64,000 bases of DNA from Rhizobiaceae bacterium (GTDB lineage Bacteria; Pseudomonadota; Alphaproteobacteria; Rhizobiales; Rhizobiaceae), in assembly GCA_014238155.1 (NCBI GenBank), contig JABABQ010000002.1:62001-126000 (forward strand), given 5' to 3'. Position numbers and translations under genes: made by a program. The notes beneath the pieces are model-generated. The model was not told the DNA's origin. It saw only the letters and a list, made by a program, of their open reading frames with translations, and ran no database searches. Shown piece by piece: positions 10,329 to 51,091 of the stretch. Position 1 is the first letter of the stretch, and each line of letters starts with the position of its first letter.

Positions 10329-11060
10329 TTAGAGCCGTTCACGACCAAGCCACTCCAGAACAGCTGAATTGACTTCATTCGGCGCTTCAATCGGAGCCAG
10401 ATGACCAGCACCGTCAATGATTTTCAACGAGGCATTTGGGATAAGGTCAGCCATTTCCCTGTGCCATTCTGGCAGACACAGAATGTCCAAGCCGCCGCAC
10501 AAAACCAGCGTATTGCCTTTATAGAGCGGCAGATGTTCACGTACACTGGCGCGGGACATTAATGCGTTTTGCTGGCGCTCATAGACAGCAACTCCATGCT
10601 CTTCCGCCATGGCAACGGCAGTGTCGATCATGGCTGGTGTCTGGTTAGCAGGTGCGAGATAAAGTTTGGCTAATTCCTGCCGGGTCAATTCCCCAACGCC
10701 AATACGGTGTGCGTCCTCAATCTGGCGGCGGCGATTGGCGCGGCGCTTCTCATCATCTGCGCCCGGATTGGCATCCAATATGGCCAAACGTTCAACCCTT
10801 TCAGGAACCCAGCGAGCCATGTTCATCGCCAATGCGCCTCCCATCGACAAACCGGCCAGGGCAAACCGGTCAAACTGCGTCTGTTCCAGCACTGCTGCAG
10901 ACATCGCTTCAAACGTATCGTATGCGCCAAGATTTGGGGCTTCTGTGGGGTAAATTCCCTCAAGCGCTGCCAGTTGTGGGGCGAAAAGCTTTTGATCGCA
11001 CAACAGGCCAGGCAGAAAAATCACCCCGTCAAACGGGCGCTGGGCCACCACCTCAGACAC
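10329..11060 (-). CDS. alpha/beta hydrolase
   Basis: A 243-residue alpha/beta-hydrolase-fold protein. The nucleophile elbow GLSMGG is at about residue 82-87, an oxyanion HG-like region is replaced by FLPGLLCD near 15-22, and the catalytic histidine sits in GAGHLAP near 223. The GTG at 11060 overlaps the stop of the MetE-like gene (GTGTCTGA), so I prefer it to longer starts inside that gene. It is the last gene of the leftward HisD-SDR-NTF2-cupin-MetE-like unit and may hydrolyse an ester or lactone made there; that is inference from position only. Confidence 0.82.
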   Translation of the reverse strand: MSEVVAQRPFDGVIFLPGLLCDQKLFAPQLAALEGIYPTEAPNLGAYDTFEAMSAAVLEQTQFDRFALAGLSMGGALAMNMARWVPERVERLAILDANPGADDEKRRANRRRQIEDAHRIGVGELTRQELAKLYLAPANQTPAMIDTAVAMAEEHGVAVYERQQNALMSRASVREHLPLYKGNTLVLCGGLDILCLPEWHREMADLIPNASLKIIDGAGHLAPIEAPNEVNSAVLEWLGRERL

Positions 11061-12186
11061 GGGCTGCGGCCAATCCAGCACCTTCGCTGAGAGTTGCCAG
11101 CTTGGCGTAGGCAATTTCGGGATCAACCGATCCGAAACCAGCAAATGTGCCAAATCCACAATCGGATCCTGCAATCACCCGGTCTGATCCGACTATATTG
11201 ACAAACCGCTCAAGTCGCTGGGCGACAACTTCCGGGTGTTCGATAAAATTCGTGGTTGTATCAACCACCCCGGGCATCAAAATCTTGTCGTCAGGTATCT
11301 CCGACTTTCGATCTCGAAATACCGTCCATTCATGGGCATGGCGGGGATTGGAGGTTTCAAACAGCACGGTTCCTGCATTGGCCCGCATCAGAGTTGGAAA
11401 CACAGTGTCCATATCAATGTCACAGCAGTGAGGCCCCTCATAATTGCCCCAACAAATGTGAATTCGCACTTTGTCCGGTGGTATATTATCCAACGCGTGG
11501 TTCAGCACTGCGACATGCATGTCTGCAACTTTTAAGAATTCTGCATCCGACAGGTCGGTGAACAGCATATGGCGCGACAAAGCCAGATCGGGACAATCAA
11601 GTTGCAATTGCAATCCAGACGCCACGATCGTTTCGTATTCTGCCCGCATAGCTTCGGCCAGCGCTTCAAGGTATTTCTCTCGTGTCGGATAGTGAACATT
11701 TTGCAAAAACAAGGAGATAACTCCGGGTGATGCGGCATTCATGAAACCACGCTCAACTCCGTGCTTGGCCATCGCCGCCTTTAAATTTGCAATATCTTTT
11801 TTCAGTTCGACCTGCCCCTTGGACACAACGTCGCCGGTGCATTGGGGGCGTGCATATTTTGGTGTCCCGCCGCTGTTTGCCAGGCGCTCAAGAAACGTCG
11901 GGAACATTTTTAGATCGGCTGGCGCATTGCGATCGCTGTCGCCGGAAAACCCGGTATATCGATCCTTCACATAGGTTGCGTAAGAAATTTTTGACGTCTC
12001 GCCATCGGAAACAATATCGATGCCCGACGCGACCTGACGGCGCACGGTTTCGTCGACGGCCTCGGTCATTGTCGCGTCGAACCCGGCACCATCGTAGGGC
12101 TGTTCTTTTTCCCGGGCAAAGATGAAATCAACGACCTTTTGCGTGCGCGGCAATGAACCAACATGGCTGACTGGGATTTTGGTCAT
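11053..12186 (-). CDS. MetE C-terminal-like zinc methyl/alkyltransferase family protein
   Basis: The 377-residue product matches the C-terminal catalytic domain of cobalamin-independent methionine synthase. The zinc ligands are all visible: His and Cys in HICWGN (about 244-249), Glu in LFETSN (about 285) and Cys in SDCGFG (about 347). The N-terminal methyltetrahydrofolate half of full MetE is absent. Short MetE-like proteins of this size include other zinc thiol alkyltransferases, for example epoxyalkane:coenzyme M transferase, so methionine synthesis is not assured. Start ATG at 12186 (MTKIPVSHVGSLPR) rather than 12216. It lies 17 bases after the start region of the bicupin gene's stop, in the same unit. 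Confidence 0.85.
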   Translation of the reverse strand: MTKIPVSHVGSLPRTQKVVDFIFAREKEQPYDGAGFDATMTEAVDETVRRQVASGIDIVSDGETSKISYATYVKDRYTGFSGDSDRNAPADLKMFPTFLERLANSGGTPKYARPQCTGDVVSKGQVELKKDIANLKAAMAKHGVERGFMNAASPGVISLFLQNVHYPTREKYLEALAEAMRAEYETIVASGLQLQLDCPDLALSRHMLFTDLSDAEFLKVADMHVAVLNHALDNIPPDKVRIHICWGNYEGPHCCDIDMDTVFPTLMRANAGTVLFETSNPRHAHEWTVFRDRKSEIPDDKILMPGVVDTTTNFIEHPEVVAQRLERFVNIVGSDRVIAGSDCGFGTFAGFGSVDPEIAYAKLATLSEGAGLAAARV

Positions 12187-12233
12187 TTTGCATACTCCAA
12201 TGCCGGCCACACACATTTAAGTGGCAAAAAAAG

Positions 12234-13205
12234 TTAGTGCAGATCAGTAGCTGTTGGTCCAGCCGGATCGTCGGTATTGATCACCCGGAACAGGCTGCAA
12301 GTCCCGGTCATGGTGGGATTTAGCTGATAGGGAAGTCCCGCAGGTATCGCGCAGGTATCGCCCGGTGCGAGTGTCGAACCTGCCTCGCTGCACTGCAACC
12401 GCCAATGGCCTTCGTGGACCAGCAAAATATGGTGACGTCCATCGCCACCCTGCGGACCGCTGAGAGAGTCGCGACCGATGAATTCAATCTCAAATCCCGG
12501 CTTGTCGCAGATCAATGCGGATTCACCGATGATCTGCGCCGGCCCGCTGGCGGCCAGTGCCATCATATCATGATAGCGGCCAATATATTCGGGCACCACT
12601 TGTTCAACCGGCACTTCGGGATAGTTCTTCAACTGTTGATCGGTCAGCAACGCCATTGGTGCAACGCCCTCGGGCAGCGGCTGCCCTTTTTTTGTGTCGA
12701 AGAGCTGTCCGGTTTCCGCCAGAACGAGACCGTGATCTGCTGCATCCTGTATCACTTGCGGTGCCCAGATTACGCCACCTCCGGCATCGTCTCCGCCGAG
12801 GATCGCCATGATCATGCCGTACTGGGTGCCGACATTTTCAAAGCCGCGAAAAATCCCCGTTGGAATGTTGAAGATGTCACCCTCTTCCAACACGACTTCT
12901 CCAGCAGTTCCATAGCGCCCCCAAAAAAAGCGCCAGCGGCCTTTGTGAACATAAAATACTTCTGCGGTGCGATGACTGTGCAGTGAATTGCGGCAGTTTG
13001 GCGGTTGCCCCGCTGCGCCAATATTAAAGCCCGGAGTTTCTGTTATGTGGACATGCTGATCGAGGGATTCCGATACCCCTCCCCCAATGATTGTGAAATT
13101 TTCCTTGCTGTCAGATCCCGGCGTATGGGCGTCAATGAAGGCTGTCTTGCACGGCACCAGGTCTCCGTAGCGAACGATGCGTGCTTCGATTTCTTCAGCA
13201 GTCAT
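12234..13205 (-). CDS. bicupin protein
   Basis: A 323-residue protein with two cupin barrels. The first shows HSHRTAEVFYVHKGRW (about 92-107) and a following EEGDIFNIPTGIFRGFEN, the second GRHHILLVHEGHW and a GDTCAIPAGLPYQL. The first domain keeps histidines suitable for metal binding; the second is poorer. Such bicupins include gentisate-dioxygenase-like and sugar isomerase-like enzymes. The ATG at 13205 overlaps the stop of the preceding NTF2-like gene by ATGA, so the pair is coupled. The substrate is unknown. Confidence 0.83.
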   Translation of the reverse strand: MTAEEIEARIVRYGDLVPCKTAFIDAHTPGSDSKENFTIIGGGVSESLDQHVHITETPGFNIGAAGQPPNCRNSLHSHRTAEVFYVHKGRWRFFWGRYGTAGEVVLEEGDIFNIPTGIFRGFENVGTQYGMIMAILGGDDAGGGVIWAPQVIQDAADHGLVLAETGQLFDTKKGQPLPEGVAPMALLTDQQLKNYPEVPVEQVVPEYIGRYHDMMALAASGPAQIIGESALICDKPGFEIEFIGRDSLSGPQGGDGRHHILLVHEGHWRLQCSEAGSTLAPGDTCAIPAGLPYQLNPTMTGTCSLFRVINTDDPAGPTATDLH

Positions 13206-14200
13206 GAAAGCTCTCCACTTTGCATCAAAATCTGTTTCCAAATCGCTATTTCGTCATACAGAGCATATTCACGACGAATGCCCTCGCCATTGGCTCCAAA
13301 TGGCCCGAATTCAACGTGGCACATGCCCATCACATGAACCTGTGCACCTGTCGGCCTGCCGAACGTGCCCCATCCCGTATGGATCCCATCCAACGACCAG
13401 CGGATTGCCGCTCGCGGCGACAACATATCGCCGTCCATGCCAATCTGATGATGGATTTTGAATTCGGCATCAGGAAATGACGAACGAAGTCCAAGCCAGA
13501 ATCCATCCACCGATGAATGTGACAGACCAGATACTGCTCCTGGATATTCAGTAACCACTGCCCGGTCGTAAACCTCGGGAATGATATGGAATTCCTTGTC
13601 CATCAACCGGGTTAGAATGGCGGCGTATTTGGCGCCCCAGGGATTGTCGTTTCCGGAGCCGTGATAACCACCATCAATGTCCATATCCGGCGAAAAGGGC
13701 TTGACGCAGTTTTCAATTCCACCTTCTGATGCGATGAGTTGGCCTGCATAGGTTTTGGGATCCAAACCCAGCTGACGAACAATGCCGCCATAATCCCGCA
13801 CCAACCATTCATCAAAAATTGTATTGTCTTTGGCGGCGCAATCGGCAATCACGCGAATTGTAAACTTCTTTCCGGTGGCGGGGCCAAATGCGCCATCTTG
13901 CAGATGTGTCGCTGTCGTGATCAGCCGGTGAGAGGACAGCAAACCCGTCTGCGGGTCTCCTGACCAGATGACGTCCTCGCCCAGTAACTCCCGATCAGGA
14001 AACTCGTGACAGGTCGCCATGGTTGCCGCAATCACTGCCTGGTTGCCACGCTGAATTCCCATTGGAGAGCGCACGGGGATGTCTTCAGCATAGTAGTGAT
14101 TGAGCGTCCCAATACCGCGACTTTCCCAAATCTCATTGGTGATGCCGATAATGTAGTCGGGAAAATCTTTCCACTCTTGGGAAAAGCCTTTGATGGTCAC
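13202..14200 (-). CDS. tandem NTF2/SnoaL-like protein
   Basis: A 332-residue protein with two SnoaL/NTF2-like domains, about residues 10-150 and 180-325. Each has the pattern of a helical start (IWESRGIGTLNHYYAED; ILTRLMDKEFHIIPEVYD), conserved polar pocket positions and long curved strands, with IHTGWGTFGRPTGAQVHVMG in the second. SnoaL-like enzymes catalyse aldol-type or dehydration steps on small molecules; no function is known for tandem versions. Start is GTG at 14200 with AAGGA nine bases upstream. It is coupled to the bicupin gene and follows the SDR. Confidence 0.78.
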   Translation of the reverse strand: MTIKGFSQEWKDFPDYIIGITNEIWESRGIGTLNHYYAEDIPVRSPMGIQRGNQAVIAATMATCHEFPDRELLGEDVIWSGDPQTGLLSSHRLITTATHLQDGAFGPATGKKFTIRVIADCAAKDNTIFDEWLVRDYGGIVRQLGLDPKTYAGQLIASEGGIENCVKPFSPDMDIDGGYHGSGNDNPWGAKYAAILTRLMDKEFHIIPEVYDRAVVTEYPGAVSGLSHSSVDGFWLGLRSSFPDAEFKIHHQIGMDGDMLSPRAAIRWSLDGIHTGWGTFGRPTGAQVHVMGMCHVEFGPFGANGEGIRREYALYDEIAIWKQILMQSGELS

Positions 14201-14212
14201 GCTTAATATCCT

Positions 14213-14980
14213 TTAGTCGGCGGTCCAGCCGCCATCGATCAGTAAACTTGTGCCGGTGATCAGCGAGGAAGCGTCACCGGCGAGAAAAACAACCGCTCCC
14301 ATAATATCTTCTATTTCCCCAACACGGCCCAGCTTGATCTTTTCTTCCAACCACGCCACGCGCTCTGGATTTTCAAAAGTGGACGCTGTCATTGGAGTGC
14401 GAATGAAAGTGGGGCAGATGGTGTTGACGCGGATTTTGTGGGCTGCCAGTTCAATGGCTGATGCTCGGGTCACGCCCTCAATACCGAATTTGGAACCACA
14501 ATAAACAGACCGATCAATGCCACCAACATGACCCATTTGGCTGGATGTGTGGATGATCGATCCACCTTGGCCTGCATCGATCATGCCTTTTGCCACCTCT
14601 TGAGCCATGAAGAATGCCGACTTCAGGTTCAAATCGGTGATCAGGTCAAAATTGTCCGGCGTGACATCCACATAGGGCATTGGTGCGTTGGTGCCGGCAT
14701 TGTTGAACAAAATATCAAACGGCCCATATTGACGCACCGCAGAAATCATCGCCTCGTGGTCCCCAACATCCAGCGATATGGATTCTGCGGAATAACCTGC
14801 ATCGCGCACCTGTTGGGCAGCCGCACCTATTTCCTCGGCATTGCGCGCAGCCATCACTACATGCGCACCATGTTCTGCAAGCGCCATGGCGCCACCCAGA
14901 CCAATACCGCGCGATGCGCCAGTCACAAGGGCGCGTTTGCCGTTCAATTGAAAGGAAGGAGTACGTGGAAGTTCGGTCAT
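14213..14980 (-). CDS. SDR family oxidoreductase
   Basis: A 255-residue short-chain dehydrogenase. TGASRGIG at 20-27, NNAG at about 94-97, catalytic Ser in IHTSSQ and Tyr-Lys in YCGSK near 163-167 are all present, with a C-terminal TGTSLLIDGGW as in FabG-like and gluconate 5-dehydrogenase-like enzymes. It sits between the HisD-like dehydrogenase and the tandem NTF2 gene in one leftward unit, which points to a two-step oxidation of a polyol- or sugar-like substrate. That role is inferred. Confidence 0.88.
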   Translation of the reverse strand: MTELPRTPSFQLNGKRALVTGASRGIGLGGAMALAEHGAHVVMAARNAEEIGAAAQQVRDAGYSAESISLDVGDHEAMISAVRQYGPFDILFNNAGTNAPMPYVDVTPDNFDLITDLNLKSAFFMAQEVAKGMIDAGQGGSIIHTSSQMGHVGGIDRSVYCGSKFGIEGVTRASAIELAAHKIRVNTICPTFIRTPMTASTFENPERVAWLEEKIKLGRVGEIEDIMGAVVFLAGDASSLITGTSLLIDGGWTAD

Positions 14981-15048
14981 GAAATTATCATTTGTCTAAA
15001 AGGAATAACCAGCTGCTTGTGACATGGGAATTGGCCTGTCGCCAGTCC

Positions 15049-16377
15049 TTACTCTGCTGCGTCAGCGGCTGGTTCCGCCGCCTCGCCATAGGGAATGTTG
15101 CGCCCGCCATAGCGGCGCACACGAATGTTGCATTGTTCAGCATGACCAACGAAACCCTCCAGCATGCAAAGGCGTGAGCCAATTTCGCCGATATGTGCTG
15201 CAGCTTCGTCCGTCAGTACTTTTTGATAGGAGTGCGTTTTCAGAAATTTGCCGACCCAAAGACCACCTGTGTAACGCCCGGCGCGTTTTGTCGGCAAAGT
15301 ATGGTTTGTGCCGATTACCTTATCTCCGTTTGAAACATTGGTACGTGGGCCCAAAAACAGAGCCCCATAGCTGGTCATATGTTCCAGAAACCAGTCGTCG
15401 CGATCGGTCATAACCTGAACATGTTCAGAGGCAATCTCGTCAGCCACCTCCAACATCTCATCATAGGTGTCACAGACAATCACCTCACCGTAATCCTCCC
15501 AGCTCTTGGAAGCAGTTTCGGCGGTCGGCAGGATATTCAAAATACGGGTGATCTCCTCCATCGTCTGGCGAGCCAGTTTTTCGCTGTTGGTGACCAATAC
15601 CGCTGGCGAATTGTAGCCATGCTCGGCCTGCCCCAGCAGATCGGTGGCGCACAATTCGGGGTCGACGGTATCATCGGCAATTACCATCGTCTCGGTTGGA
15701 CCGGCAAACAGGTCAATTCCAACACGGCCAAACAGCTGCCGCTTGGCCTCCGCAACAAAGGCGTTACCCGGACCAACAATCATATGACACGGTTCAATCG
15801 TTTCGGTTCCCAATGCCATCGATCCGACGGCCTGAATGCCGCCCATGACATAAATTTCGTGGGCCCCGCCAAGCTTCATCGCGGTCACAATGGCCGGGTG
15901 TGGTTCACCATTTTGCGGTGGTGCGGAGGCAACGATTCGCGGCACTCCTGCAACTGACGCCGTCAACACCGACATGTGGGCGGAAGCCACCATCGGGAAT
16001 TTTCCACCCGGCACATAACATCCAACAGATTGCACCGGAATGTTCTTGTGGCCCAAAATCACTCCGGGCAGCGTCTCAATTTCAATGTCCGTCATAGACG
16101 CCCGCTGAGCGTTGGCAAAGTTACGGATTTGCGTCTGAGCAAATTTAATGTCTTCCATGTCGCGGGCCGAGACTTTGCTCATGGCCGCGTCGATTTCAGA
16201 GTCGCTTAACTTGAAATTCGCCGGAGAGTAATTGTCGAATTTCTGCGACAATTCCCGAACTGCTGCGTCACCACGGTTCTCGATATCCTTCAAAATGGAT
16301 TCAACGGTGCCACGCACCTTTGCATCGTCCTCAGCACGATCTTCTGCACTGCGTGCGGTTTTTAAGTGACGGATCAT
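15049..16377 (-). CDS. HisD-family NAD-dependent dehydrogenase (HpsN/histidinol-dehydrogenase-like)
   Basis: The 442-residue product is a full-length histidinol dehydrogenase homologue. Zinc and catalytic positions are kept: Gln and His in GQAEHG, Glu-His in ASEHVQV, Asp-His in [13 protein letters not shown] and the late His in GFVGHAEQ. HisD enzymes oxidise an alcohol to a carboxylate in two NAD-dependent steps; HpsN uses the same fold for dihydroxypropanesulfonate. No other his genes are near, and the ABC importer context favours catabolism. The ATG at 16377 is preceded by GGAGG; 16425 is a longer alternative lying over the operator-like palindrome at 16420-16435. Confidence 0.87.
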
Positions 16378-16419
16378 TTTACCTCCAAAGAGCCCGGTAC
16401 CTCTTAACAGTATGGCTCT

Positions 16420-16435
16420 TTGCATACGTATGCAA
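16420..16435. promoter_or_regulatory. operator-like perfect palindrome before the HisD-like gene
   Basis: TTGCATACGTATGCAA, a perfect 16-bp palindrome with a central CG, about 50 bases upstream of the HisD-like start. The same 16 bases recur at 21542-21557 in the divergent promoter of the importer. TG...CG...CA symmetry is typical of LacI-family operators, so a LacI-type repressor is the likely binder; none is encoded within this block. Confidence 0.8.
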
Positions 16436-16496
16436 TCGGTTTATGAAGCCAGCCCATTTTATTCATCCATTTGGTTCCAATTTATTGTTTTGTGGC

Positions 16497-17042
16497 CTAT
16501 TTTCTCCAAGGCAGTTGGTCGGGCCGGAAATCCCGCTTTGGATTATCGGTTAAGTTCTCCCAGCCCATTCCGGCAAATACATCATGCCCCAATTGCTTCA
16601 AAACACTGGGAAAATCGACCATTACCCAATTGTCGATAACTTTTCCATCGACGACTTTCCAGAAATCCATGTACCGAATGACAACCTTTTTGCCGGTCGC
16701 GGCCAGACCCATAAAGTCTCCCGAATGAATCGCTTCCTGGCGGCCGAATGCGGCGGCCCACTGACCATCGAACAACCGTGCTTCGTCAATACACACCTTA
16801 TCGGAAAACGCGGCCTGAAACGGTTTTTGCCAGGCTTCCTGAAACTCCCGCAACCCCTGTTTGAAACCGCAACCTTGATTTCCCATCCACCGAAAATCAT
16901 CTGAAAAATATTCGCCAATATCGGCAATGCGATGGTCGTTCAGTCCATCGACCATGCCCTCTATTACCGCGCGAGTAGCGGCGGTATCATCTTCATTATT
17001 ATCCTGGCTCAAATATGCCTGCTGTGGACGCGCACCTAACAT
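16497..17042 (-). CDS. single-domain NTF2/SnoaL-like protein
   Basis: A 181-residue SnoaL-like protein with a short N-terminal extension. The core has TRAVIEGMVDGLNDHRIADIG-type opening helix, then FSDDFRWMG, and the long strands VIRYMDFWKVVDGKVIDNWVMVD, the hallmark GKV--NW turn of ester-cyclase-like proteins. It is 15 bases after the stop of the UgpC-like ATPase gene, so it is the last gene of the importer transcript. It is one of three NTF2-like genes in the block. The reaction is not known. Confidence 0.8.
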   Translation of the reverse strand: MLGARPQQAYLSQDNNEDDTAATRAVIEGMVDGLNDHRIADIGEYFSDDFRWMGNQGCGFKQGLREFQEAWQKPFQAAFSDKVCIDEARLFDGQWAAAFGRQEAIHSGDFMGLAATGKKVVIRYMDFWKVVDGKVIDNWVMVDFPSVLKQLGHDVFAGMGWENLTDNPKRDFRPDQLPWRK

Positions 17043-17057
17043 GAAAATCTCATATTA

Positions 17058-18110
17058 CTACAGATGGAGCCGTTCACCGGTGTTTCCATCAAACAGATGG
17101 CAAATACTTGGAGGCACAGAAACTTTCATCGTATCACCAATTTCGCAGCGATAATCCTTTGCTGCCTTGACAGATACCAGGCTGTCCCCGGCCCTGGCTG
17201 TTACCATGGTTGCCTCGCCCAGCAATTCCATGGAATAAACAGGCGCCTCAAAATCGGCCTCCGCATCCGTGATGCTGGCATCTTCAGCTCTGAAGCCCAG
17301 AGTTACATTGCCGGAATACGACTTACCCAATCTGGGTATCGTGATATTTGGCCCGGTGAAAACTCCATCTTCGATGATCCCTTCAATCAGGTTCATCGCT
17401 GGCGAGCCAATGAAAGCTGCTACAAATGTGTTTTGCGGATGGTCGTAAATATCCACCGGCGTCCCAACCTGCTGCACAATGCCAGCATTCATCACAACAA
17501 CCCGGTCGGCCAATGTCATGGCTTCAATCTGGTCATGGGTTACATAAATTGTCGTGGTGGCAAGGGTATTTTGCAAATTCTTGATCTGTGCCCGGGTTGA
17601 AACACGCAGTTTTGCGTCTAGGTTCGACAAGGGCTCATCCATCAGGAACACCGTGGGTTCGCGAACAATGGCGCGGGCCAATGCTACACGCTGACGCTGA
17701 CCTCCCGACAGTTCCGCCGGGCGGCGATGGGTAAAATCGTTCAACTCCACCATGTCGACGGCGCGCTGCACCCGTTCGGCATGAGTTGACGGATCAACCT
17801 TTCGCACCTTTAGCGGAAATCGAATGTTTTCATAAACCGTCATGTTCGGATAAAGGCCATAGCTTTGGAACACCATGGCGATGTCACGGTCCTTCGGCTC
17901 CAGGTCATTGACAATTTGGTCGCCAATCCAGATTTCACCGGATGTGGCTTCTTCCAGCCCGGCAATCATCCGCATGGTGGTTGTTTTGCCGCACCCCGAC
18001 GGTCCCAGAAGGACGAGGAATTCCTTATCGGCAATTTCAAGATCAAACTCCTGAACACCGACGAAATCTCCCCAGCGCTTGCTGACTTTATTCAGACTGA
18101 TACTGGCCAT
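17058..18110 (-). CDS. ABC importer ATPase, UgpC/MalK type
   Basis: A 350-residue ATPase with a C-terminal TOBE domain. Walker A GPSGCGKTT at about 38-46, signature LSGGQRQRVALARA, Walker B VFLMDEPLSNLD and H-loop THDQ are complete. The C-terminal 110 residues (from FIGSPAMNLIEG) are the regulatory OB-like domain of MalK/UgpC proteins. It would energise the two permeases encoded upstream on the same strand. Substrate class by family: sugars, polyols or glycerol phosphates. Confidence 0.93.
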   Translation of the reverse strand: MASISLNKVSKRWGDFVGVQEFDLEIADKEFLVLLGPSGCGKTTTMRMIAGLEEATSGEIWIGDQIVNDLEPKDRDIAMVFQSYGLYPNMTVYENIRFPLKVRKVDPSTHAERVQRAVDMVELNDFTHRRPAELSGGQRQRVALARAIVREPTVFLMDEPLSNLDAKLRVSTRAQIKNLQNTLATTTIYVTHDQIEAMTLADRVVVMNAGIVQQVGTPVDIYDHPQNTFVAAFIGSPAMNLIEGIIEDGVFTGPNITIPRLGKSYSGNVTLGFRAEDASITDAEADFEAPVYSMELLGEATMVTARAGDSLVSVKAAKDYRCEIGDTMKVSVPPSICHLFDGNTGERLHL

Positions 18111-18170
18111 TTCTCAACCTCGAAACATGCACTTTTGGTGCGTTAAATATTGCGATCCAGACACTCTGCC

Positions 18171-19052
18171 CTACCCCTTCACAGCGCCAGCGGTAAGCCC
18201 ACTGACAATCTGTCGCTGAAAAATCATAACCAAGACAAACAATGGCGCGGTGGCCGAGACCACAGAGGCAACCGCGAACATGACATTGCCCTCGGTCTGG
18301 GTCGTGCCAAGGAAGCTCGCAATCTTGGGAACCATTGTCTGATTTTCCTTCGACAACAGCATCGCGGTGACGGCGAAGTCATTATAGGCGAGTAGAAACG
18401 AGAACAGTCCGGTGGTGATCACACCCGGCCACATGACCGGGATTATGACGTGGCGAAATGCCTGGAACCGTGTGCACCCGTCAACCATTGCGCTTTCATC
18501 GAGGTCTTTTGGAATCTTCTGAAAAAACGAATGCAACATCCACAAGGTGAACGGTTGGTTGATAGCCACCAGAACGATGATTGTGGTCGGTAGAATTCCC
18601 CATAGGTTCCATTCAAAAAACGGCAGCAGATAGCCCGACACCAACGTTGTTGGAGGCAGGGCTCGAAATATCAGAGCCAGAATAAGCAGCCAGAATGTAT
18701 AGCGGAATCCCGACCGGGATAATGCATAACCTCCCAGTGTTCCGATGGTCAGTGAGGTGCAAACAACGAAGAAACAAACAATCGCAGTATTGATGGCCGC
18801 CTTCCAGAATTCTTCCTGCACCCAGGCACCTTCATACCCCGTGCCGGTAAATGCAGTGCCATATTCAGCAACAGTGCGGGCGCCGGACAGTGCGTTGGTC
18901 CAGTCGGCTTTTGAGAAAAAGTCGAGTTCCACCTTGAACGAACCCCAAAGGGTCCACAGGAATGGAAAGGCGGCCAGAATGAGCCACAAGATTACGAAGC
19001 CATAGAGAAAGAAACGAAGGCCGGTTGGTTGTTTTTCCGCTGCACTGGCCAT
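18171..19052 (-). CDS. ABC importer permease, MalG type
   Basis: A 293-residue inner-membrane permease with six helices. The EAA loop that contacts the ATPase is clear: ESAMVDGCTRFQAFRHVIIPVMWPG (about 195-219), as is the MalG-like TM arrangement. The C-terminus ends in LTAGAVKG, the conserved end of this family. It lies four bases after the stop of the MalF-type permease gene. Confidence 0.93.
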   Translation of the reverse strand: MASAAEKQPTGLRFFLYGFVILWLILAAFPFLWTLWGSFKVELDFFSKADWTNALSGARTVAEYGTAFTGTGYEGAWVQEEFWKAAINTAIVCFFVVCTSLTIGTLGGYALSRSGFRYTFWLLILALIFRALPPTTLVSGYLLPFFEWNLWGILPTTIIVLVAINQPFTLWMLHSFFQKIPKDLDESAMVDGCTRFQAFRHVIIPVMWPGVITTGLFSFLLAYNDFAVTAMLLSKENQTMVPKIASFLGTTQTEGNVMFAVASVVSATAPLFVLVMIFQRQIVSGLTAGAVKG

Positions 19053-19056
19053 GGAA

Positions 19057-20082
19057 TTAAGCCTTCCTGTTGAAATCGCGCCACGTGCGCACCAGCACCG
19101 GTGACAACAGGATTGCCACTCCGATAATGGTCAGAACTGAAGTTGCTGCTGCAGAGGACAGCAATCGGGTTTCTCCACCCAGATCGTTATATATGATCCA
19201 TGAAAGAGACGTTGCATGAGCTTCGGCATTAAAGCCAATAATCGGCTCGAAAACCCTGAAATTATCCATCAACTGAATCAGTGCAACGAATGTCACCAAC
19301 GGCATGATGTGCGGAATAACCACAAAGCGAATGCGCTGCCAGCGCGTCGCTCCATCAATCATCGCAGATTCCAATGTATCCTGCGGCAATGTTTGCAGGC
19401 CCGCATAAAACACCACAAAGGCAAATGGTGCAGCGTGCCAAACCCCATAGACCATCAGCATGATCCAGGTGAGACCAGTTGATGCTTTCAGTGACAAATC
19501 CGGATCTCCGGCCAACCACTGAAGTGCAGAACCAATGACACCACGAGAATCGATCATCCAGAACAGGATCAGTGAACCAATCAACGGCGTGACAATCATT
19601 GGCAGCAAGGAAAAGAAAATCACCAAGCCTTTGAGCCGTTGATTGAGCGCGTTAACTGAGACCGCAATCATAAAGCCCAGGATGATCAACATCGGTGTCA
19701 CCACAAATGTATAAGTCAGGGTGAATGACATCGCCCGGTAAAATGGCAAATTAATTATCGTCGACAGGAATTCATCCATGCTTTGCGACTTGGTCCAGGC
19801 ATCGGCCACTTCGGAGGTCGCCAAATGGCCACGGTCAAAGTAAATGTCGGTTCCGACCCATTTTCCCAACGGTTGTTCCCGGCGCAGAGATTCAGTTGCC
19901 GCAGTGTCGACAGAAGTTTCTTTTTCGCAGCCGAATGGTCCGCAGTTTTCGACTTCGATAATGACCTGGTCATGGGCTGTATGCAGCGATTGGGTAACCA
20001 CAGACACAATAGGCAACGCAATAAACAGCATCATCGCCAGCGCTGTCGGCAAGAAGAACCAGAAGAATGTCCGATGTTTCAT
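19057..20082 (-). CDS. ABC importer permease, MalF type
   Basis: A 341-residue permease. After the first helix (about 8-30) there is a periplasmic insert of roughly 80 residues (to about 110) that contains CGPFGCEKE with two cysteines, perhaps a disulfide. Six further helices follow; the EAA loop reads ESAMIDGATRWQRIRFVVIPHIMP (about 240-263). The insert is larger than in ordinary MalF-type sugar permeases other than MalF itself and could contact the binding protein. Confidence 0.92.
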   Translation of the reverse strand: MKHRTFFWFFLPTALAMMLFIALPIVSVVTQSLHTAHDQVIIEVENCGPFGCEKETSVDTAATESLRREQPLGKWVGTDIYFDRGHLATSEVADAWTKSQSMDEFLSTIINLPFYRAMSFTLTYTFVVTPMLIILGFMIAVSVNALNQRLKGLVIFFSLLPMIVTPLIGSLILFWMIDSRGVIGSALQWLAGDPDLSLKASTGLTWIMLMVYGVWHAAPFAFVVFYAGLQTLPQDTLESAMIDGATRWQRIRFVVIPHIMPLVTFVALIQLMDNFRVFEPIIGFNAEAHATSLSWIIYNDLGGETRLLSSAAATSVLTIIGVAILLSPVLVRTWRDFNRKA

Positions 20083-20128
20083 ACTACCCCGCGTATATTA
20101 GTCGGCCCCGTACTCAAGTATAAATGCG

Positions 20129-20153
20129 GGGGCGGATGATTGTCACCCGCCCC
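20129..20153 (-). other. intercistronic hairpin between binding-protein and permease genes
   Basis: On the transcribed (minus) strand GGGGCGG and CCGCCCC pair, and GTGA/TCAT extend the stem to 11 base pairs (one G-T) around a three-base loop. No T-run follows, so it looks more like a 3'-end stabiliser of the binding-protein message than a terminator. It begins ten bases after the binding-protein stop. Confidence 0.7.
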
Positions 20154-20162
20154 GGGCAAGAC

Positions 20163-21398
20163 TTATTTAAGATAGCCTTTTTCCTTGGCTGCCGCCGAAT
20201 AGGCTGCTTCGACATCGGCCAAAGTTTTTTCAGCACTTTCCTTACCCTGCATAAAGTCGGCCAGTTCGGCACCAAGCGCTGAATGCAGCAAACCCTGGAA
20301 TGGGCGCATTGGATAAGGTTTGGTGCCCATTGATGCGGCAGCAAATACGCCTTTAGCTGCATCGGTCGGCTCATATCCGTCGATCAGCCATACTGCCTGC
20401 GGCGTGGTCTCATTGTTCAGAATACTCGGATCAATAGCCGCTTTCAGCGCCTTAAACGTGGCTTCAGCGTCTTCATCGGAGATGTTCTTGGAAACAGTCC
20501 AACCATCCCACCAAAGAGTGGTTGCAGGGACCGCACCACCACCAACCGTCATCGGAGCAGAAATCGCGGTGTTATCAACGACTTCCTGCGAAGAACCTTC
20601 GGTTTCGCGAAGCGGGCCAACTCGAGAGCCCCACATGTTCATCAAGCCAACATTGCCGGCTTTCCATTCTGCAGATGTGGCGTTTGAATCGTGTGTGAGG
20701 TAGTCGGGATTCATATATTCAGACAGGCTTTTCATCATGTTGAGAGCGGCAACACCCTGTTCATTGTTGATGGTGACTTCGGCCGTGCCCGACTTAAAAA
20801 ACTCGCCGCCGTAGCCGATATACATATTGTTGAATTCCTGAGCCAGATTCCAACCAGCTTTATAGGCGCCACCAACGGGGTTTTGGAGAATGCCCTTGTC
20901 GCGGATAGTTTTCGCTGCTGCGAGCATGTCTTCATAAGTCTTTGGAACTCCCAGACCGGCTTTTTCCAAAACATCTTTACGATAAACCAGATGCTGGGCG
21001 TTCGCCATGAACGCGACCGCCATGACTTTTCCATCAACGGTGATCAATTGGTTTTTCTTCAGGCCGTCACCAAATTTGGCAACATAATCGTCAAGCGGAC
21101 GAATCAGATCGTCGTTCATCAAAGCAACAATTGAAGAGTTCGCGACAATCGCAGATGTGTATTCAGCAGGGTTGCCAGACATGCCCGCAACATTGATCTT
21201 CTGGTGATCTGCGGTGAGATTGGCTTTGACCTCAACACCATTGCCGGCGCAGGACATGGCGCCCTTGCCAATGGTCTGGATCGCCGGGAACTCGTTTCCA
21301 ACAATGCTGACCCGCCCACTGGAAATGTCGCAGGCAGCATGTGCTGATGCTGTTGCGGCCAGGGCAAGTCCACTGGCCAGAATAAGTTTCTTAATCAT
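20163..21398 (-). CDS. ABC importer solute-binding protein (family 1, sugar type)
   Basis: The 411-residue product starts with a signal peptide (KKLILASGLALAATASAHA, residues 3-21) and is periplasmic. The fold is the MalE-like binding protein: an N-terminal lobe with AEYTSAIVANSSIVALMNDD-type loops and a hinge. It has cysteines at the start of the mature part (CDISS and MSCAG) that could form a disulfide. It precedes the two permease genes. The start region lies about 140 bases from the palindrome at 21540-21559. Confidence 0.92.
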   Translation of the reverse strand: MIKKLILASGLALAATASAHAACDISSGRVSIVGNEFPAIQTIGKGAMSCAGNGVEVKANLTADHQKINVAGMSGNPAEYTSAIVANSSIVALMNDDLIRPLDDYVAKFGDGLKKNQLITVDGKVMAVAFMANAQHLVYRKDVLEKAGLGVPKTYEDMLAAAKTIRDKGILQNPVGGAYKAGWNLAQEFNNMYIGYGGEFFKSGTAEVTINNEQGVAALNMMKSLSEYMNPDYLTHDSNATSAEWKAGNVGLMNMWGSRVGPLRETEGSSQEVVDNTAISAPMTVGGGAVPATTLWWDGWTVSKNISDEDAEATFKALKAAIDPSILNNETTPQAVWLIDGYEPTDAAKGVFAAASMGTKPYPMRPFQGLLHSALGAELADFMQGKESAEKTLADVEAAYSAAAKEKGYLK

Positions 21399-21539
21399 GT
21401 CTAAAATTCTCCCTAGAGTTTGAGGCTATATGCACCTCAAGATTTTTCACGCGCGAAACGATGGTCCAAGACCGTCAGCTTCTCTCGCCATTTGAATAAC
21501 AGCAAGACAAATCCTTCGTTCTGGTATAAGACAAACATT

Positions 21540-21559
21540 TATTGCATACGTATGCAATA
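21540..21559. promoter_or_regulatory. operator-like perfect 20-bp palindrome in the divergent importer promoter
   Basis: TATTGCATACGTATGCAATA is a perfect 20-bp palindrome between the binding-protein gene (minus) and the tandem NTF2 gene (plus). Its 16-bp core is identical to 16420-16435. Its place suits control of both divergent genes by the same factor, probably LacI-like from the central CG and TG/CA ends. Confidence 0.82.
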
Positions 21560-21618
21560 TCTAATGTGAACGAAACTTCCAAACCAACGATTCTTTCTGC
21601 TAACAGACTGATAATATA

Positions 21619-22743
21619 ATGAAAAATGGCTGCCTTCCGATTCCACAAACACTCAATTTGACCAATAAAACGCTTGTGCAGAGGGCCATGCAGGCGATTG
21701 CAGATTGCCAAACCGGTCAGCTGAATGAGGTGTTGGCGAACTCATATGTCGATGGGGCAATCTGGCGTGGCTCCCATCCTCTCAATCAATTGGAAGGCAC
21801 AGATTCCATTGCAGAAACAGCTTGGTTGCCGCTGAAACACAGTCTTCCTGACATGGAGCGGCGCGATGAAATCATTGTTGGTGGTCGGTATCGTGACCGT
21901 CACGGTGAAGAACACGACATGGTCGCCTGTCTTGGGCATTATTGCGGTACATTTAAGCGTGACTGGCTGGATATTCCCGCAACTGGGCAACCCCTGTATG
22001 TCCGATACGGAGAAGTTCACACCGTCAAGAATGGAAAGATCACCCAATCGAGCTGTCTGTGGGATGTGCTTGATGTCATCCGTCAGGCCGGTTTCTGGCC
22101 TCTGGCACCGAGTTGGGGCCAGGAAGGCCGATGGATGGGACCGATCACCTGCGATGGTCTGGTTTTGACCGAACAGGACATTGAGGAAGGTCTTGGCTCG
22201 ATTGCCCAGGCGCTGGCGATGCACAAGACGCTGAGCGATTACAAAGATCACAATATGAAAGGTCGCGAAGGCCTGATCAACATGGCTCAAAAAGACCACT
22301 GGCATCAAAAAATGATGTGGTACGGGCCGTCGGGCATCGGCACCACGAGAGGATTGCCCGGTTTCGTCGACTTCCATCAATTGCCGTTTCGACTTTTCTG
22401 GCCCGGTCGCAGGGGCGGTCAGTCGATCATCAATGAAGAAAGTCAGTCAGGCATAAAGTCCGACTCGGGGCATTATATCCAGATCGGAGATGGTCCTTAT
22501 TCCGTTACCGGTGGCTGGCCCAGCGTGATTGCACAGAACCAAGGGGGTGGCCTGTTTGGCAGTGGCGCGACCGGCCGCCCAACGCAGATGCGGGTGATCG
22601 ACTTTTATCTGCATCACGAAGGAAAAATTCGCGAAAACTGGGTGCCCATCGATGTGATCCATATTTTGCTGCAGCTGGATATCGACGTCATGCAACGTGT
22701 GCGAGATCAATTTGGGCGCAACCGTCTGGGACTACGGGTCTAG
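21619..22743 (+). CDS. tandem NTF2/SnoaL-like protein
   Basis: A 374-residue protein with two SnoaL-like halves (about 20-165 and 190-365). The first contains RYGEVHTVKNGKITQSSCLWD and the second RVIDFYLHHEGKIRENWVPID, the same GKI-NW turn as the other NTF2-like proteins of the block. It is divergent from the ABC importer and shares its operator-like palindrome. The start has a poor ribosome-binding site; an internal start near 21658-21688 is possible. Function unknown, but co-regulation suggests a step in use of the imported compound. Confidence 0.78.
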   Translation: MKNGCLPIPQTLNLTNKTLVQRAMQAIADCQTGQLNEVLANSYVDGAIWRGSHPLNQLEGTDSIAETAWLPLKHSLPDMERRDEIIVGGRYRDRHGEEHDMVACLGHYCGTFKRDWLDIPATGQPLYVRYGEVHTVKNGKITQSSCLWDVLDVIRQAGFWPLAPSWGQEGRWMGPITCDGLVLTEQDIEEGLGSIAQALAMHKTLSDYKDHNMKGREGLINMAQKDHWHQKMMWYGPSGIGTTRGLPGFVDFHQLPFRLFWPGRRGGQSIINEESQSGIKSDSGHYIQIGDGPYSVTGGWPSVIAQNQGGGLFGSGATGRPTQMRVIDFYLHHEGKIRENWVPIDVIHILLQLDIDVMQRVRDQFGRNRLGLRV

Positions 22744-22765: not shown

Positions 22766-24601
22766 CTAAGCGTAACACGCGGTAATGATACGCGGTGGCG
22801 CGCGGCGTTCTTCCGTTTCCATGATTGTTGATAAAACGGACTTGTTCGACAGGTGCTTACTGAACAGATGGGAAATCAGAATTGAGCTTGCCAGACTTGC
22901 AGCAATCGGCACCAGCCACAGAGAAACAATTCCGGCACCTATGCCAATCCCCAGCAAAGTTCCAACGCAGGTTTCCAGCCAATGAAAACGCGCAAGCACG
23001 GCAAATCCGTAGTTGCTGTCACCACGATTTTGGGGTGTCCAACCCGTATCTCGCCCCACGATGGTGTGAACCACCGCCGAAACATGCTGCACCATCAAGA
23101 TAGGTGCCAACAGAAATGACAATACGATTTCGCAGACAACATTGGCTGAAAATCTCAACGGACCGCCGACATTTGTCAGCGAAGGATCTCTGCTGATGGT
23201 CTGGGCAACGCCCATCAGTTTAGGGGTCAATAACAGGCCCAGCATGAAAGCCAGAACGACCATTCGACTGACCGTGTCAATCTGCGGCCACTGCGGAAAC
23301 AAGGGATTGGTATCGGCAAAATAACGGAATACGCTGTCTTCCCTGCCACGCCCCATCAAAGCCCAGACCACCAACAGACCGAACCAGACGACGGACGCAA
23401 TATACGCCATCGCCCCCTGCAACATGTGAAATCGCGATGCAGCTGAAAAACCGCTCGAGAACAGCAAACGCAAGTGCTGGAGATTGCCCTGACACCAACG
23501 CCGATCGCGCAGCACATAGTCAATAATGCTCTGCGGTGTTTCTTCATAGGTTTGTGACAGATCCGGCAACAGACGAACCGACCAGCCCGCACGGCGCAAC
23601 AGGGCAGCCTCGACAAAGTCGTGGCTTTTGATGGTTCCTCCAAGGGCGCCGCTTCCGCGCAAAACCGGCAAACCCGAACAGGCAGCAAATGCCGTTGTCC
23701 GGATTATGGCATTATGGCCCCAGTAATTTCCCTCATTGCCTGACCAGCGGTCGAGACCCCGCGCCAGAGCACCGCCATAGATGTTGTTGGCAAATTGCTG
23801 AACTCGGGAAAATATTGAATTTGCCCCGATCAGGCGCGGCACAGTCTGGATCAGTCCAGCTTCTGGCGTCGCAACCATTTCGTCTGCCAGACGAATGATG
23901 GATGAGGCAGACATTAGGCTGTCTGCATCGAGCGTCACAAATGCCGACCAGCCTGCCCCCCAGGATTCGATCCAGTCGCGGATATTACCGGTTTTTCGCT
24001 CGGTGTTGAGAGCCCGTCGCCGGTAGTAAACTTCTATCGCGCCACGTGACTGATGACGAATCTGGTCGAACAATGCCGTCTCGCGAAACGCGATTGCGTC
24101 GTCGCGCGTGTCACTCAGCAGAAATATCCCAAATTTATGATGGGTCTTTGAACTCTCCAGATCTTCGCGCATTGCCTTCAATCGGCCAAACACAGCATCC
24201 GGGTCTTCATTATAAACCGGAATCAGAAGCGCTACCTGCAACGCACCAGACGGGCCCGCTGGCTGCGCGACATCAGATTCACGCGCAAAAAACAAACCAA
24301 TCGTACTGGAGGCAACTGAAAGCGCAATCCAGAATGCGGAAAACCCAACCAGAGCCATCATGGCAATTTCAATCGCCACGAAGCCGTCATTTTCGAACCA
24401 ATCCATAATGATGCCAACAAGCACCAAGGAGGTAAGAGCCGCGGGAACAAAGGTTGCCAGACGAAACAGATATGTGCCCTTCAGTGGTGTCAACTTGTTG
24501 ACCTGTGGATCGTTGAACGGTTTTGCAAAATCCTGCAAAGGCATCGCAAGAGGTGCATGTTGCGGCATTTGAGCGTCTATTTTCAACTCCTGCATACTCA
24601 T
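22766..24601 (-). CDS. opgH: glucans biosynthesis glucosyltransferase H
   Basis: A 611-residue inner-membrane GT2 glycosyltransferase that builds the beta-glucan backbone of osmoregulated periplasmic glucans. Two N-terminal helices (about 45-95), a cytoplasmic catalytic domain with VTLDADSLMS (the D-D metal site) and RDRRWCQGNLQH (the Q/RxxRW acceptor motif), then several C-terminal helices. It is shorter than enterobacterial OpgH (about 850 residues), mainly at the N-terminus, as usual in alphaproteobacteria. The ATG at 24601 overlaps the opgG stop (ATGA). Confidence 0.93.
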   Translation of the reverse strand: MSMQELKIDAQMPQHAPLAMPLQDFAKPFNDPQVNKLTPLKGTYLFRLATFVPAALTSLVLVGIIMDWFENDGFVAIEIAMMALVGFSAFWIALSVASSTIGLFFARESDVAQPAGPSGALQVALLIPVYNEDPDAVFGRLKAMREDLESSKTHHKFGIFLLSDTRDDAIAFRETALFDQIRHQSRGAIEVYYRRRALNTERKTGNIRDWIESWGAGWSAFVTLDADSLMSASSIIRLADEMVATPEAGLIQTVPRLIGANSIFSRVQQFANNIYGGALARGLDRWSGNEGNYWGHNAIIRTTAFAACSGLPVLRGSGALGGTIKSHDFVEAALLRRAGWSVRLLPDLSQTYEETPQSIIDYVLRDRRWCQGNLQHLRLLFSSGFSAASRFHMLQGAMAYIASVVWFGLLVVWALMGRGREDSVFRYFADTNPLFPQWPQIDTVSRMVVLAFMLGLLLTPKLMGVAQTISRDPSLTNVGGPLRFSANVVCEIVLSFLLAPILMVQHVSAVVHTIVGRDTGWTPQNRGDSNYGFAVLARFHWLETCVGTLLGIGIGAGIVSLWLVPIAASLASSILISHLFSKHLSNKSVLSTIMETEERRAPPRIITACYA

Positions 24602-26169: not shown

Positions 26170-26173
26170 CGCC

Positions 26174-32412: not shown

Positions 32413-32468
32413 GGGATTCTTCCAATTGGATTATTCTAATGACTGAATAAGCGCCTTGCGATAGGCTG

Positions 32469-32482
32469 GCAACAGGCGTTGC
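32469..32482. promoter_or_regulatory. inverted repeat in the ThDP-enzyme/LacI divergent promoter
   Basis: GCAAC at 32469-32473 and GTTGC at 32478-32482 flank four bases. A second, AT-rich repeat, TTATTC with TGAATAA, lies near 32432-32451. Either could be an operator for the LacI protein that starts at 32549, but neither has the classic central CG. Low confidence. Confidence 0.35.
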
Positions 32483-32548
32483 TATCAACTGACCACAAAG
32501 TATTTTGAGCATTGCCTAACCAGATAATTCCGTGACACATTCCGCTCC

Positions 32549-33556
32549 ATGGCCAAACCGACCGTAACATCTGCCGACGTGGCCCGCGCCGCACAAGTCT
32601 CCCAATCAGCTGTCAGCCGAACCTTTACCCGGGGCGCTTCGGTTGCACAGGAAACCAGACGCAAAGTGTTACAGGCCGCCGACGAGCTTGGTTATCGTCC
32701 CAACGCATTGGCGCGCTCGCTGATCTCGGGAAAATCCGGGATCATCGGTGTCCTTGTCGCCTATCTGGACAATCAGTTTTATCCGGTTGTGATTGAAAAA
32801 CTATCTCGTTCGCTGCAGGCCAAAGGCTATCGCGTATTGCTGTTCATGACCGATCAGGGCGACCAGGACGCGGTCGTCAAGGACATGTTGCAATATCAGG
32901 TGGAAGGCGTGGTGATGGCGTCTGCGCACTTGTCGTCTCAGCTGGCTCAGCAGTGTGCAGACAACGGTATTCCCGTGGTTTTGTTCAACCGCTATATCGC
33001 CACCTCACCGGCCAATTCAGTGACGTCGGACAATCTGGATGGTGGCCGCATGGTGGCCGACTACCTAATTCGGGGCGGCCACAAGCGGATCTCGTTCATT
33101 GCAGGTTTCGAGGAATCCTCGACCAATCGGGATCGTGAAGCCGGGTTTTACAAAGGCCTGGCGGAGCATGGCGCAGTTTGTTTTTCCCGGGGCGTCGGTG
33201 CCTACACACAGGAAGGTGCAGCACAGGCTGCCCGTGACCTGTTTGGTGAGGCAAAGAAACCCGACGCAGTATTCGTTGCCAATGACCACATGGCCTTTGC
33301 AGTCATGGATGTTTTGCGCGACGAACTTAATCTGCACATACCTAACGACGTCTCTGTCGTCGGCTATGATGATGTGCCTCAGTCCGCGTGGAAGGCCTAT
33401 GACCTGACAACGGTCGAACAGCCCTCCGGCCCGATGATCGATGCCACTGTAGACATTTTGTTGGAACAGATTTCCAATCAGGATGTAACACGTAAGGCAG
33501 CGGTGCTTCCGGCGCGTTTTGTAGTGCGCAACAGTGCAAAAAAGCCTACCAGCTGA
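32549..33556 (+). CDS. LacI family transcriptional regulator
   Basis: The 335-residue product has an N-terminal HTH (TSADVARAAQVSQSAVSRTF, residues 7-26), the hinge helix RPNALARSLISG near 52-63 and a periplasmic-binding-type effector domain (from GIIGVLVAYLDN). The start is ATG at 32549. The divergent ThDP enzyme is the most likely target. It is also the only LacI regulator in the window, so it is a candidate, unproven, for the palindromes at 16420 and 21540. Confidence 0.93.
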   Translation: MAKPTVTSADVARAAQVSQSAVSRTFTRGASVAQETRRKVLQAADELGYRPNALARSLISGKSGIIGVLVAYLDNQFYPVVIEKLSRSLQAKGYRVLLFMTDQGDQDAVVKDMLQYQVEGVVMASAHLSSQLAQQCADNGIPVVLFNRYIATSPANSVTSDNLDGGRMVADYLIRGGHKRISFIAGFEESSTNRDREAGFYKGLAEHGAVCFSRGVGAYTQEGAAQAARDLFGEAKKPDAVFVANDHMAFAVMDVLRDELNLHIPNDVSVVGYDDVPQSAWKAYDLTTVEQPSGPMIDATVDILLEQISNQDVTRKAAVLPARFVVRNSAKKPTS

Positions 33557-35076: not shown

Positions 35077-35092
35077 TCTGCAAACGATGTGA

Positions 35093-36007: not shown

Positions 36008-36028
36008 GTTACAGCAGATCTCATTGGG

Positions 36029-37818: not shown

Positions 37819-37848
37819 CTCACTACTTTCTCAAGCCAATCACCATGA

Positions 37849-39354: not shown

Positions 39355-39366
39355 ATTATCTATTTC

Positions 39367-40323: not shown

Positions 40324-40329
40324 AACTCC

Positions 40330-41985: not shown

Positions 41986-42000
41986 CGTCTAGATTCCCTA

Positions 42001-42825: not shown

Positions 42826-42956
42826 AGTTACCCCTCCCCGGGCAAATTAACAGTTCCAGCGCCTGTCAACTTTATAAATCCTGCAACATCATCAGTCAGC
42901 AGCAGATGGTGTTGGAGGATTCCTCCGCTCTGCCTCAACGGATTTCATCCAGGCAG

Positions 42957-42989: not shown

Positions 42990-43002
42990 CACAATTTTTG
43001 TA

Positions 43003-51077: not shown

Positions 51078-51091
51078 ACGACATCAGATTG

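Follow-up and report, generated by a model that had tools for sequence, protein, structure and literature searches.

What does a bacterium take up and break down with a sugar-type ATP-binding cassette (ABC) importer, a relative of histidinol dehydrogenase (HisD), a short-chain dehydrogenase/reductase (SDR), a bicupin and a zinc protein resembling half of the methionine synthase MetE? The question is raised by a block of twelve genes at about 10329-22743 in a 64,000-nucleotide stretch, hereafter the window, of contig JABABQ010000002.1 from a Rhizobiaceae bacterium, whose genome assembly comprises 4.8 Mb in 77 contigs. An earlier note, made from the sequence alone, had described an import-and-catabolism block of these families and had known of no described pathway with this set, and both points have held: Pfam and NCBIfam profile searches confirmed all the named genes as open frames of the stated families, and the literature that we searched for the marker genes together offered neither a description of the pathway nor a substrate. 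We propose, with a probability of roughly 0.4 for the joint claim, that the block is an operon for the uptake and breakdown of an anionic, sugar-like and often methylated beta-dicarbonyl compound (an enolized diketone or reductone), and that it represents one member of a larger, undescribed pathway family. The genes are the following.

10329..11060, minus strand: alpha/beta hydrolase, PcaD-like (Pfam Abhydrolase_1, 3.6e-12; NCBIfam PcaD-like model far below cut-off)
11053..12186, minus strand: MetE-like zinc protein, catalytic half only (PF01717, 3e-11)
12234..13205, minus strand: bicupin (Pfam)
13202..14200, minus strand: double SnoaL/NTF2-like protein A, here SnoaL-A (PF07366)
14213..14980, minus strand: SDR (Pfam)
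15049..16377, minus strand: HpsN/HisD-fold dehydrogenase, third clade (PF00815, 3.8e-137)
16497..17042, minus strand: single SnoaL/NTF2-like protein (PF07366, 3.2e-18)
17058..18110, minus strand: ABC importer ATPase, UgpC/MalK type (NF008653, 453.8 bits, cut-off 432)
18171..19052, minus strand: ABC importer permease 2 (PF00528, 1.5e-18)
19057..20082, minus strand: ABC importer permease 1 (PF00528, 1.1e-14)
20163..21398, minus strand: sugar-type solute-binding protein (PF01547, 1.1e-19)
21619..22743, plus strand: double SnoaL/NTF2-like protein B (PF07366, 1.1e-16), equally placed in several relatives

The eleven minus-strand genes are nearly gapless, with a spacing between longest open reading frames (ORFs) of -122 to +80 bases, and from 21398 downwards they follow the order SBP_bac_1, two BPD_transp_1, the UgpC/MalK-type ATPase, SnoaL, Histidinol_dh, SDR, double SnoaL, cupin, Meth_synt_2 and alpha/beta hydrolase. 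The divergent plus-strand gene is separated from this run by 220 bases and brings the SnoaL/NTF2-like proteins of the block to three, two of them double-domain. Likely starts that differ from the longest ORF are ATG 16377 for the HisD-like gene (GGAGG upstream), ATG 12186 for the MetE-like gene (GGAG upstream) and ATG 13205 for the cupin gene (in an ATGA overlap with the SnoaL stop), orthologues agreeing in the latter two cases. The start of the hydrolase is uncertain, GTG 11060, 11051 or 11048 being among the options and the longest ORF reaching 11174.

The block is not a chance grouping, since the gene set recurs in many families; chance adjacency is ruled out by the conservation of the neighborhood, a check that the earlier note had asked for and that extends across Hyphomicrobiales, Rhodobacterales and Granulosicoccaceae. 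Among 61 related genomes, the window's own included, the bicupin family occurs in 20, in 18 of these at 60% identity or more, and the HisD-like gene (at least 78%) is present in all 18 (in two pieces in one of them, G007) as compared to 1 of the 43 others. A cupin search of a species collection gave at least 593 stretches that fit the pattern, 553 of them coding for a relative; the 80 that were retained come from Hyphomicrobiales, Rhodobacterales, Granulosicoccaceae and Paraburkholderia, and the best among the matches listed are metagenome-assembled genomes of Hyphomicrobiales/Rhizobiaceae. Of 385 genomes drawn evenly from the class, 41 have the family (E <= 1e-20) and 29 a full-length bicupin (E <= 5e-80), the latter spread over 20 families; three of these 29 genomes are only 1.4-1.6 Mb in size, yet they hold HisD-like, MetE-like and SnoaL genes.

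In tblastn maps the operon is repeated across many families, often together with a regulator of the LacI family and an aldolase of the RraA family, both absent from the window cluster. The 74 loci with full context contain the HisD-like gene 62 times, the SDR 56, LacI 55, SnoaL-A 48, the MetE-like gene 42 and RraA 37 times. The bicupin stands solitary among unrelated genes in eight Rhodobacteraceae-type genomes, Planktomarina included. A separate function for these solo-cupin loci was considered and dropped, as the HisD-like gene lies elsewhere in all eight genomes (78-80% identity), adjoined by SnoaL-A in all eight and by the MetE-like gene in six; in one of them (G067) there is, in addition, another bicupin, which neighbors a HisD-like gene (L157).

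In the route that we propose, the ABC importer, recognized as such by family, would take in the presumed compound (step 1), and the SnoaL-like and MetE-like proteins would strip its decorations, the MetE-like protein handing a methyl group from the presumed donor to homocysteine (step 2). The bicupin, as a 2-His-1-Glu metal enzyme, would open the ring, and the alpha/beta hydrolase would hydrolyze the product, as fold and frequent company suggest (step 3). A class II pyruvate aldolase, which in many relatives is of the RraA or the HpcH/HpaI type, would then free pyruvate and a C4 keto acid (step 4), which the NADPH-type SDR would reduce, for instance from 4-hydroxy-3-oxobutyrate to 3,4-dihydroxybutyrate (step 5), whereupon the HisD-like enzyme would take the CH2OH group through a four-electron oxidation to COOH and yield malate (step 6). 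This last step would parallel that of HpsN on dihydroxypropanesulfonate (DHPS), with a carboxylate replacing the sulfonate, 3,4-dihydroxybutyrate being the carboxylate twin of DHPS. In OtnK-type sister clusters, the hydroxylated C4 product, 3-oxotetronate, would pass via OtnK and OtnC to dihydroxyacetone phosphate. We note that steps 1 and 2 rest on protein families and sites, and that the chemistry of steps 3 to 6 is inferred.

The RraA or HpcH/HpaI pyruvate aldolase and the LacI of many relatives were missing from the earlier note, as was an OtnK-type sister pathway; these point to a pathway that cleaves carbon-carbon bonds more than to a simple oxidation of a polyol. Part of this evidence comes from plasmids, of which 26 records carry a cupin relative below 60% identity and 11 were opened. 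In ten of the 11 the distant cupin (32-49% identity) has an alpha/beta hydrolase and an aldolase of the HpcH/HpaI type nearby, namely on plasmids of Klebsiella, Pantoea, Novosphingobium, Deinococcus, Vibrio, Salinivibrio, Thioclava, Ensifer, Roseomonas and Rhizorhabdus; near the cupin of the remaining record, from Cupriavidus, neither was found. The triad aldolase of Klebsiella is HpaI-like (SwHKA match 2.6e-60, HpaI 2.7e-47), and that of Rhizorhabdus wittichii RW1, Swit_5035, is the crystallized SwHKA itself (6r62; identical over 250 residues). The accessible part of PMC10099721 describes SwHKA as a pyruvate/hydroxypyruvate aldolase and does not contain the words 'physiological', 'natural substrate', 'operon' or 'gene cluster'. 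Its locus, L191:7617-11017, is an SDR-hydrolase-aldolase-cupin run on pSWIT02, flanked by IS4 transposase genes. Among known aldolases of this kind, SwHKA, HpaI and the 4-hydroxy-4-methyl-2-oxoglutarate/4-carboxy-4-hydroxy-2-oxoadipate (HMG/CHA, RraA-type) aldolases, none has a copy linked to the window cluster.

The lower modules that accompany the triad exclude each other. Counting genes within 9.5 kb of the cupin in 145 loci, with the HisD-like gene at 50% identity or more, we found the HisD-like gene in 102 loci, OtnK in 7, neither in 36 (the SwHKA locus being one) and both in 0, or 101, 7, 36 and 0 of 144 once a duplicate contig (L100/L222) is removed. The OtnK loci carry the HpcH aldolase (7/7) and the hydrolase (6/7), never RraA (0/7), with OtnC and often OtnI alongside, so that genes of the OtnK-OtnC-OtnI tetronate (threonate/erythronate) pathway are joined there to the same cupin-hydrolase-aldolase triad, whereas the window type carries the HisD-like gene and the SDR instead. 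Since three genomes (G022, G799 and G801) each carry one HisD-type and one OtnK-type cluster at separate places, the two look parallel, for related compounds. RraA or HpcH is linked in 49 of the 78 full HisD-bearing loci, RraA in 42; RraA also occurs without the HisD-like gene in ten loci, and the RraA-like protein has Glu where the canonical RraA motif D-X20-R-D has Asp. Two distant HpcH homologs (29-33%) lie outside the cluster in the window genome, and one of these may be the aldolase of the window pathway.

For the bicupin itself, the first barrel contains His-X-His-X3-Glu (H88, H90 and E94, numbered from TTG 13241), with Arg132 in the place where the canonical cupin motif has its fourth ligand, a His, and these metal-site residues are invariant in 40/40 and 11/11 rows of two row sets. 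An AlphaFold2 model (pLDDT 82) bears out the bicupin fold, and structure comparison puts ring-cleaving dioxygenases and oxalate decarboxylase at the top, tied with seed globulins. Identity to the bicupin ring-cleaving dioxygenases (quercetinase, gentisate/salicylate 1,2-dioxygenase) is only 9-16%, from which the HxHx3E metal set with Arg in fourth place sets the window protein apart, and unrelated bicupins score equally; ring cleavage is a putative activity.

The nearest solved relatives of the HisD-like protein are HpsN enzymes (E ~1e-111), ahead of histidinol dehydrogenases (1.6e-80). With the HpsN/HpsO/HpsP pathway for DHPS, known from Cupriavidus pinatubonensis and others, the block shares a HisD-fold, NAD-dependent four-electron dehydrogenase type and partner oxidoreductases; it differs in its own clade, in Met/Leu for His126, in ABC, TRAP (tripartite ATP-independent periplasmic) or major facilitator superfamily (MFS) import, and in the addition of cupin, hydrolase, MetE-like and (in relatives) pyruvate aldolase genes. 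According to the accessible text of PMC11382572, His126 sets DHPS dehydrogenases apart and Lys353 also contacts the sulfonate. The alignment of its clade comprised 95 rows, namely the window protein and 94 others (92 distinct) that share at least 60% identity with one or the other of two queries. The His126 position holds His in none of them, Met in 86 and Leu in 9 (Met129, in a GKFPM motif, in the window protein), and Lys353, the zinc ligands Gln248, His251 and His411 and the catalytic Glu318, His319 and Asp352 are kept in 95/95.

In a tree of 54 rows the window protein falls in a clade of 28 (support 99/99), outside 12 HpsN-motif rows (100/99); the sister of the clade is a 13-row group made up of these 12 and a single long-branched row whose motif is KYPL, and five HisD-type rows from other genomes branch apart. 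Four of the 14 stretches fetched for this tree gave no usable row, among them the 30% HisD homolog of the window's own genome, which the tree thus lacks, and the long branches of HisD and another paralog group may join falsely. By its sequence relationships the protein is a third clade of the HpsN/HisD family, sister to HpsN, and a role in histidine synthesis was rejected on tree clade and gene context. The enzyme probably still oxidizes, in two steps, a CH2OH that neighbors a carbinol, with the Lys holding an anion; this anion is unlikely to be a sulfonate, and a carboxylate would be the simplest choice. The partner SDR has Tyr160-X3-Lys164 and, after beta-2, Arg46, which is present in 91/91 rows (the window and 90 others, 88 distinct); an Arg at this place generally favors NADPH, and by that rule the SDR would be of the NADPH type.

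Third-clade HisD-like genes also stand with an SDR where there is no bicupin, at L166:8562-10648 and L167:8327-13006, a further use of the pair, which in L167 adjoins an FAA (fumarylacetoacetate) hydrolase, a small cupin and an epimerase-type dehydrogenase. Another HisD-fold paralog group with an RYPLLSAP/RFPLLSAP motif accompanies an amidase in clusters of the type described here (L048:10816-12207, L059, L067, L081, L121 and L029), and we know of no described function for it.

The MetE-like protein (377 aa) corresponds to the C-terminal catalytic half of MetE, at 20% identity, without the N-terminal half. Checked against E. coli MetE, it keeps the four zinc ligands (H641/C643/E665/C726 = H245/C247/E279/C345) and the homocysteine-site residues (S433/E484/D599 = S13/E65/D199), whereas the folate-stacking Trp561 is replaced by F162, the column holding F or T. 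Because the zinc and homocysteine residues are kept, the earlier suggestion that a methyl or alkyl group is moved, here to a thiol, is a reasonable one, and in its catabolic operon the protein probably removes a methyl group from a presumed donor. Alternatively, it might only recycle methyl groups, from methyl-tetrahydrofolate to homocysteine, in the service of another demethylase. The intact homocysteine site would permit this, and a Sphingobium relative (52%), situated in an aromatic-acid region, has methylenetetrahydrofolate reductase and a GcvT-type barrel protein in its vicinity. The missing N-terminal domain and folate-stacking Trp speak against it, however, as does the fact that the MetE-like gene tracks one specific SnoaL gene (SnoaL-A is present in 40 of 42 MetE-like loci, compared with 8 of 32 other loci), and no folate-linked demethylase was recognized in Pfam searches of the cluster proteins; we regard recycling as somewhat unlikely. 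More distant MetE-like relatives (37-40%) are carried by haloarchaeal plasmids (L177:8983-10137 and L178:6112-10137), where that of Haloterrigena stands beside a phosphoenolpyruvate hydrolase-like protein, a cupin and a Tm-1-like protein, another uncharacterized set.

Several observations are left unexplained by the proposed breakdown of a beta-dicarbonyl compound: HisD-SDR pairs exist without the cupin (L166 and L167), no aldolase is linked in 29 of the 78 full HisD loci nor in the window cluster, the MetE-like gene is missing from 26 of these 78, and the SnoaL proteins number three. It is also conceivable, if rather unlikely, that the HisD-like enzyme and the SDR act first, on the hydroxyls of the imported compound (CH2OH to COOH, CHOH to C=O), and that the resulting beta-keto or beta-diketone acid is cleaved by cupin, hydrolase and an RraA-type aldolase to oxaloacetate and pyruvate. 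Members of the HisD family oxidize primary alcohols, RraA-family aldolases include HMG/CHA aldolase, and the distribution of RraA given above, in HisD-bearing and never in OtnK loci, would suit such an order. On the other side, the NADPH-type Arg in every SDR row favors reduction, and the same triad is employed by OtnK-type clusters in which neither HisD nor SDR was recognized.

Ordinary catabolism of a sugar acid or tetronate conjugate (e.g., ascorbate-derived, or a polyol), with the cupin as sugar isomerase or decarboxylase and the aldolase splitting a 2-keto-3-deoxy acid, would agree with the LacI regulators, the sugar-type importers, the OtnK/OtnC/OtnI neighbors and the place of oxalate decarboxylase among the top folds of the bicupin. 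We find it quite unlikely, as it leaves the MetE-like protein, a S-adenosylmethionine (SAM) methyltransferase, an amidase and many SnoaL proteins unexplained, and as the variety of transporters suggests decorated substrates. The importers range from the Ugp type of the window through a second Ugp type and further ABC sets to TRAP, MFS_2 (a sugar-type transporter, in pelagic roseobacter clusters) and MFS (in clusters of enterobacteria), and optional additions are an amidase with the second HisD paralog, a SAM methyltransferase or an M20 peptidase; the leftover neighbor genes, clustered and judged by eye, are mainly apparent alternative importers and local synteny. Since the core is constant while importers and stripping enzymes change, a family of decorated substrates fits. 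The solute-binding protein at 20163-21398 has only weak relatives in the PDB (best E 1.1e-10) and no informative solved one, and the solved relatives of a Roseibium TRAP binding protein belong only to the general DctP family. A regulator for the window cluster may be found 10 kb from the block:

32549..33556, plus strand: candidate regulator, LacI family (Pfam LacI; 54% identity to the LacI of a Ruegeria cluster)

This is the best of seven matches to the Ruegeria LacI in the window genome (E 3.7e-107) and may regulate the block from a displaced position. A thiamine-diphosphate enzyme on the minus strand stands beside it (30772-33556 for the two).

Catabolism of DHPS or another C3 sulfonate, the part of the earlier comparison with HpsN that did not stand although HpsN is indeed the nearest solved relative and sister clade and Lys353 is kept, is very improbable on sequence grounds because His126 is absent from all 95 rows, with the window genome holding a separate HpsN-type gene elsewhere (RYAH motif), each of the eight solo-bicupin genomes a second HisD homolog (46-50% identity; all six read carry the HpsN motif), and no sulfite-releasing gene recognized in Pfam searches of the cluster proteins.

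If the operon does break down a beta-dicarbonyl compound, one candidate, which we advance as doubtful, is the C7 ring found in gadusols and in mycosporine-like amino acids (MAAs), which serve algae, cyanobacteria and fungi as sunscreens; kojic acid, C7 cyclitols and compounds of the ascorbate type were also considered as substrates. The bicupin would convert 4-deoxygadusol with O2 to the methyl ester of 4-hydroxy-4-hydroxymethyl-2-oxoadipate, if demethylation by the MetE-like protein does not come first; the hydrolase would free the acid, the aldolase would release pyruvate and 4-hydroxy-3-oxobutyrate, and the SDR and HisD-like enzyme would lead on to malate. Gadusol, with one more hydroxyl, would instead give pyruvate and 3-oxotetronate, the OtnK substrate, and these different products would explain the mutual exclusion of the two lower modules; amidase and SnoaL proteins would take off the amino acids. 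With the known structures, the atom balance closes for both 4-deoxygadusol (C8H12O5) and gadusol (C8H12O6): addition of O2 gives a methyl ester, from which water then releases methanol to leave C7H10O7 or C7H10O8, and cleavage by the aldolase yields pyruvate together with C4H6O4 or C4H6O5. In the table of an MAA review, deoxygadusol (m/z 189.0757) and gadusol (205.0707) lie one oxygen apart; no bacterial catabolic pathway was found in the accessible part of that review, and no catabolic gene set in the literature searched for mycosporine breakdown.

The pathway is widespread in bacteria of land and sea and, in the literature searched, undescribed. With it, the HpsN/HisD family gains a third branch and the crystallized aldolase SwHKA a gene context, and it leads to a concrete prediction, namely turnover of gadusols and mycosporines or at least a C4 carboxylate analog of DHPS.

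Next to the block, at 22766-26181, the window carries a membrane glycosyltransferase-like gene and MdoG, probably for osmoregulated periplasmic glucan synthesis. Another catabolic block at 34162-45748 includes two beta-hydroxyacid-dehydrogenase-type proteins, a galactarate/altronate dehydratase-like protein, a PhyH-type dioxygenase, a TRAP importer and a GntR regulator, and a run at 45829-52996 comprises a thiamine-diphosphate enzyme, a mandelate racemase-like enzyme, a flavin adenine dinucleotide (FAD) oxidoreductase and a second TRAP importer. Elsewhere, operons of the pelagic roseobacters contain a fusion of LysM and SBP_bac_3 (L153:3114-8786, with similar genes in L148, L150, L151 and L155), together with a second LysM-like protein and a conserved protein of ~220 aa, both without a Pfam match.

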